From Nitrospirota bacterium (GTDB taxonomy: Bacteria; UBA2233), in assembly GCA_011620345.1 (NCBI GenBank), contig WOZJ01000005.1:1-10825 (forward strand): a DNA stretch of 10,825 nucleotides. Direction: 5' to 3'. The position numbers and the translations under genes were made by a program. The notes under the pieces were generated by a model. The model was given only the letters and a program-made list of their open reading frames with translations. It was not told the DNA's origin and made no database searches. Shown here in pieces: positions 11 through 122 of this stretch (the stretch's first letter is position 1; every line of letters starts with the position of its first letter).

Positions 11-36
11 GATAGCCGGGTCTTTCTAGGCCCGGC
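11..36 (+). repeat. REP-like stem-loop unit A (diverged, inverted)
   Basis: A GATAG head leads into a 9-bp stem, GCCGGGTCT (15-23) pairing with AGGCCCGGC (28-36), with one T·G wobble and a TTCT loop at 24-27. It matches the two units at 46-71 and 97-122 when those are read on the minus strand: same GATAG head, same CGGG at the stem base, same TTCT loop. The inner stem bases differ but still pair. There is no T-run after the stem, so a Rho-independent terminator is not favoured. Confidence 0.6.
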
Positions 37-45
37 GCAAAGAGA

Positions 46-71
46 GCTGGACAAGAATGTCCCGCCTATCG
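46..71 (-). repeat. REP-like stem-loop unit B
   Basis: On the minus strand this reads as a GATAG head followed by an imperfect 8-bp palindrome around a TTCT loop. On the plus strand the inner arms GGACA (49-53) and TGTCC (58-62) flank AGAA, with one mismatch lower in the stem (T48 against C63). Bases 49-71 are identical to 100-122. Confidence 0.7.
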
Positions 72-96
72 GGGGCCGGCGGAAAGGCAGAACGTA

Positions 97-122
97 GCGG
101 GACAAGAATGTCCCGCCTATCG
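97..122 (-). repeat. REP-like stem-loop unit C
   Basis: This is the cleanest copy. A perfect 8-bp stem, GCGGGACA (97-104) with TGTCCCGC (109-116), surrounds an AGAA loop on the plus strand (TTCT on the minus strand), and CTATC follows, which is GATAG on the minus strand. It lies 51 bp from unit B in the same orientation, with a 23-bp exact match (49-71 and 100-122). It is about 70 bp downstream of the stop of the 108-aa gene, a usual place for REP-type repeats. Confidence 0.7.

Follow-up and report, generated by a model that had tools for sequence, protein, structure and literature searches.

A dispersed family of GATAG-headed REP/BIME units and its putative cognate RAYT clade in a Nitrospirota genome and in other phyla

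The window, by which we mean the whole stretch of 10,825 nucleotides that was analysed, is the entire contig C23 of a draft Nitrospirota genome, and it opens with a group of short palindromes. The question is whether these palindromes are REP elements of the kind associated with RAYT transposases, or hairpins of some other origin or function. A preliminary description had read them as a REP/BIME-like cluster of three hairpins with GATAG flanks, two of them sharing 23 identical bases and the third inverted and diverged. The cluster and the neighbouring gene comprise the following features.

11 to 35, plus strand: REP unit of Z type, from its head GATAGCCGGGTCTTTCTAGGCCCGG, in which the GATAG head is followed by a hairpin of CCGGGTCT, the loop TTCT and AGGCCCGG; covariance model 38 bits, fold z −4.2
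46 to 70, minus strand: REP unit of Y type with one stem pair mismatched, GATAGGCGGGACATTCTTGTCCAGC; 40.8 bits, fold z −4.9
97 to 121, minus strand: REP unit of Y type with a TTCT loop and a perfect 8-bp stem, GATAGGCGGGACATTCTTGTCCCGC; 43.5 bits, fold z −6.0
1 to 1, minus strand: first base in the head of a fourth, Y-type unit whose body is C61:25044-25068(−); 43.5 bits
190 to 600, minus strand: 136-aa ORF with no Pfam or NCBIfam match, also present at the corresponding position of the sister genome, where it is conserved

The bases at 49–71 do recur exactly at 100–122 (GGACAAGAATGTCCCGCCTATCG), and the unit at 11 lies in the opposite orientation with a 9-bp stem, as had been described. All three window units fold strongly as single-stranded DNA (z −4.2 to −6.0); the description of the hairpins needs amending only in that the 46–70 unit has one mismatched stem pair. 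The count of three likewise holds within the window, and a fourth unit straddles its edge: the last 55 nt of contig C61 are identical to the first 55 nt of the window, and since such an end overlap is what contig ends in an assembly graph show, we take this unit to span the C23/C61 joint. The heads of the array therefore fall at 121(−), 70(−), 11(+) and 1(−). The array lies 3′ of the 136-aa ORF, 68 nt separating the 3′ end of the ORF from the nearest unit, and on the far side an ORF on C61 faces it with its 5′ side. A search of the window for GATAG followed by a hairpin with an 8-bp stem and a 4-nt loop returned exactly three units, against a mean of 0.004 in mononucleotide shuffles, and the unit pattern itself occurs twice in the window and not once in 200 dinucleotide shuffles.

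The family extends well beyond the window. A pattern scan of the 1.8-Mb genome recovered 20 copies within three mismatches, as against none for the reversed control. A covariance model derived from 21 different units gives about 30 units of at least 28 bits in this genome and 91 in its sister UBA2233 (G001; Nitrospirae, same genus); in each of two unrelated genomes it gives two to three matches, the best with E values of 0.11 and 0.28. The expectation that copies would be dispersed was thus borne out, with some 30 here and some 90 in the sister, as was the expected placement between genes and 3′ of them. Outside ORFs of at least 100 aa lie 26 of the 30 own-genome units, although such ORFs make up 83% of the DNA examined; units are often 3′ of genes, and many are between convergent genes. 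The four units inside ORFs comprise two that flank an N gap and two in the N-terminal stretch of a 426-aa ORF with a TTG start, perhaps upstream of its real start. Eight own-genome units score at least 42 bits, the remainder being off by one to several bases, and the copy number is low for REPs. What was observed is a dispersed REP/BIME family, as the preliminary description proposed. Several of the contigs C23, C61, C41, C47, C2 and C60 of this genome end in or beside unit arrays, and the GATAG repeats seem to fragment the assembly.

Comparison with the sister also shows how the arrays differ between close relatives. Contig C48 of UBA2233 carries the site orthologous to that of the window cluster, 92% identical over 1.6 kb and bounded by matching outer flanks; four units stand here against one there, a difference of 120 bp and three units. 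The single UBA2233 unit has the head-side flank of the 97–121 unit and the tail-side flank of the C61 unit. At C26:17977 the relation is reversed, one unit here corresponding to five alternating Y and Z units in the sister, and at C26:69267 both species have one unit, so not every site differs. Because unit number differs at orthologous sites, we infer that arrays grow or shrink within the genus. A candidate empty site on C3 (L015 1498-1705 versus L055 6300-6320) was rejected: the sister is without about 196 bp there, and the edge falls within a degenerate unit (GGGGACAAGAAT), so that a deletion in the sister, begun in the hairpin, seems likelier than a clean insertion here.

The units fall into two main covarying subtypes, Y (ACATTCTTGT), with the stem end ACA/TGT and the loop TTCT or TTCC, and Z (for example GCTTTCCAGC), with the stem ends GCT/AGC, CCT/AGG and relatives. 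Among the 21 units, 91% of stem cells are paired, compared with 21–46% when the partners are slid. Changes on both sides of the stem account for 20 cells, spread over four of the eight stem pairs, a number reached in none of 500 shuffles; the covariation score is 0.357 against a shuffled mean of 0.137 (0/500). Among the covarying pairs are 6-25 (G-C/C-G), 11-20 (A-U/G-C/C-G) and 13-18 (A-U/U-A). The stem is thus kept by compensatory changes, the covariation that the REP proposal called for. A third, rarer subtype with the loop AAAC or AAGC (GACAAACACGTC; for example G001:C11:28871-28895) is found in UBA2233, where it replaces Y in arrays, and has one copy in the window's genome (C26:49725-49749).

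Neighbouring units are mostly inverted, in 7 of 9 adjacent cases in this genome and 33 of 42 in the sister. An inverted Y/Z combination makes up 19 of 24 adjacent pairs in UBA2233 and all 43 in other phyla, where YY, ZZ and tandem pairs were absent among those 43. This pairing rule offers a natural experiment on why REP pairs have two types. The unpaired GATAG head was present in 21 of 23 own units, 45 of 48 in UBA2233 and, with no head required, 143 of 155 in other phyla, frequencies that are biased upward because most loci, the cross-phylum ones included, were fetched with GATAG-containing patterns. The heads do not follow the GT[AG]G form that defines the GTAG superfamily, GGTAG occurring in only 2 of the 155 units from other phyla, in line with the earlier remark that the GATAG head differs from the enterobacterial type.

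The preliminary description had also called for a search for a RAYT gene flanked by the same unit. RAYT genes with units close by were found in nine genomes, the sister and eight others, and none was found in the window's own assembly. In UBA2233 the gene (G001:C44; L190 1639-2104) has units on both sides in BIME-like flanks. Its first half matches PF01797 (E 7e-9), and its two halves match NF047646 REP_Tyr_transpos with 62 and 25 bits, where the cut-off for the whole model is 80; a frameshift at a run of G interrupts the gene and may be real or an assembly error. When a RAYT-clade profile was used to rank the RAYT-like genes in unit-holding genomes, 30 loci were examined. Among the top nine (at least 167 bits), eight carry canonical GATAG hairpins no more than about 170 bp from the gene; at the ninth, L245, the GATAG hairpin just upstream is atypical and has a longer loop. 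Canonical GATAG hairpins were absent from all 21 lower-scoring loci, in flanks of up to 1.5 kb on each side. Three of the top nine (L243, L245 and L247) had not been used in building the profile. At L060 (Schekmanbacteria), L096, L100 (Omnitrophota) and L243 the gene stands between heads-out units, with Z at its 5′ side and Y at its 3′ side; at L247 a Z unit lies 5′ of the gene and a variant (ACTTTCCAGT) lies 3′ of it. In these five loci, then, a RAYT lies between inverted units of the family, the arrangement known as a REPtron. In a tree of RAYTs that included six GATAG-flanked enzymes, these all fall to one side of a branch, with modest support (72/82). The units very probably form a REP/BIME family with a cognate RAYT clade.

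Could the hairpins instead be ordinary intrinsic terminators or mRNA-stabilising structures, alike through common function and not through mobility? Many units do lie just 3′ of genes, and the three folded units are stable hairpins. Terminators were nevertheless rejected for lack of T-runs, no consistent run following the units on either strand, and neither the conserved unpaired GATAG head nor the inverted Y/Z pairs, the sequence shared across phyla and the adjoining RAYT clade would be expected of them; we regard this explanation as very unlikely. Slighter still is the chance that we are dealing with MITE-like orphans derived from an ordinary IS200/IS605 element and not with RAYT REPs. Hairpins and Y1 enzymes are common to both systems and IS200-like TnpA genes are present in the sister, yet the sister's other Y1_Tnp (TnpA) loci are without GATAG hairpins, the window's genome yielded no Y1_Tnp at all, and the RAYT model fits the gene beside the units better than the IS200 model does (62 versus 24 bits). 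That the palindromes are operators of a DNA-binding regulator is the least probable reading, since units that are palindromic, intergenic and conserved between species would suit it, whereas compensatory stem changes that preserve the fold and not the sequence, the many units between convergent genes or 3′ of genes, and a unit number per site that varies between sisters do not.

The window feature is therefore best read as a REP array, very probably a small BIME with units in both orientations, a GATAG head and Y and Z subtypes, for which a RAYT-type enzyme would be the most likely mover. The units are probably mobile, and their mobilisation by a RAYT is inferred from the architecture of the loci. 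Such an enzyme, of the HUH/tyrosine type, would bind one folded strand of a unit, take the bases 5′ of the hairpin as a guide and then cleave, copying heads-out Y/Z pairs into new intergenic places and beside existing units. In the window's genome the enzyme is either lost or unassembled, so the array would now change, if at all, through recombination or slippage. Any cellular role, such as the protection or termination of transcripts 3′ of the 136-aa ORF, would be secondary.

The own assembly (96.8% complete, 72 contigs) yielded no RAYT by PF01797, NF047646 or the clade profile. The gene is likely absent, though not certainly so, given a fragmented draft in which several contig ends lie in or close to unit arrays; the units of this genome are either orphaned or dependent on a gene that the assembly lacks. 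To find the empty site, an ortholog of the gene next to the sister's RAYT was sought here and not found (best match 37% identical), a result compatible with loss of the RAYT or with an assembly gap. Among the 31 genomes searched, 22 are without a high-scoring member of the RAYT clade, which means either that orphan units are common in the GATAG family or that draft assemblies are incomplete.

The family was found in at least 30 assemblies, whose titles hold at least 10 phylum-level names among the matches listed, where a phylum represented by a single assembly may reflect misbinned contigs. Units are nearly letter for letter alike across distant phyla, and some GATAG-clade enzymes are only about 42–46% identical. 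We tentatively suggest, with some doubt, that GATAG units may be a third REP head class beside GTAG and CGTC, conserved across about ten phyla in the form of Y/Z pairs that accompany a single RAYT clade. If so, either the unit is more tightly constrained than its enzyme, or unit and enzyme have moved repeatedly between phyla as a pair. The usual description of REPs is that they are specific to a species (PMC6006769), and that of RAYTs is of single-copy genes passed on vertically (PMC8049555). Near-identical units with divergent enzymes make REP–RAYT co-specificity and transfer directly testable. What is surprising is not the kind of element but its unusual head, its strict Y/Z pairing and the way its units stay nearly identical across phyla beside divergent enzymes.

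Apart from the usual head, the GATAG family has the features by which REPs, BIMEs and REPtrons have been defined (PMC2817692, PMC3733652). Most REPs have been sorted into the GTAG and CGTC superfamilies, GTAG being degenerate at its second and third positions (PMC3733652). Like the GTAG-tagged superfamily and its BIMEs (Di Nocera 2013, PMC3733652), the GATAG units are short hairpins with a one-sided unpaired head and covarying subfamilies, form inverted dimers and clusters, are mostly intergenic and 3′ of genes, and flank a RAYT. They differ in the head, best taken as ATAG preceded by a conserved G, and in being near-identical in very distant phyla; some GTAG families are also common to distant species (PMC3733652). 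The Y and Z REPs of E. coli with yafM (Nunvar 2010, PMC2817692) similarly alternate in inverted pairs, and two different unit types delimit the RAYT gene there, but the GATAG units have no stem bulge, another head and unrelated sequence.

By motif only, the GATAG RAYTs and hairpins appear closest to group 3 / subclass 2.5 TnpA-REP (PMC6006769). They share with it a RAYT of about 155 aa, the HxH, WQ and YI..NP motifs, and short perfect hairpins with a 3–4 nt loop (PMC6006769, PMC8266576). Published accounts place subclass 2.5 mostly in xanthomonads and pseudomonads (PMC6006769, PMC8266576), whereas here the hosts belong to Nitrospirota, Omnitrophota, Schekmanbacteria and Deltaproteobacteria, and the Y motif is YI[EQ]xNP. 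The rules for automatic searching in the subclass 2.5 survey demanded GTAG or GTGG and would miss GATAG units, which suggests that surveys requiring GTAG miss real families. Literature searches returned no paper relevantly linking GATAG heads with REPs or RAYTs, and no paper containing the Y core that concerns bacterial repeats. For the S. maltophilia enzyme, a change at the first position of GTAG lowers cleavage and changes at the last two positions abolish it, and guide A3 and G4 have been proposed to select CT as the site of cleavage (PMC8266576). Cleavage at CT would be predicted for GATAG units as well, since ATAG keeps A3 and G4.

Two further loci deserve mention. In Desulfobacterota AH_259_B03_O07 (L250, ~1810-1835) a related RAYT, which lies outside the GATAG-flanked set and below the gap in scores, has a downstream GTAG-headed hairpin (GTAGGTCACGAGTCTTGCTCGTGAC), read by eye; the hairpin provides a useful contrast for the change of head. 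In UBA2233 (DDYN01000008.1; L194 3180-5280 and L190 1122-1367), repeated small coiled-coil/membrane ORFs are bracketed by GATAG units. Their starts are near-identical (MEWAQVLAIVVPVMLTIVIGVIYNNKRIDDLR..., MLDTHAAVKELTKAGLSEDAAEAIV...), and these ORFs may have been duplicated together with the units.
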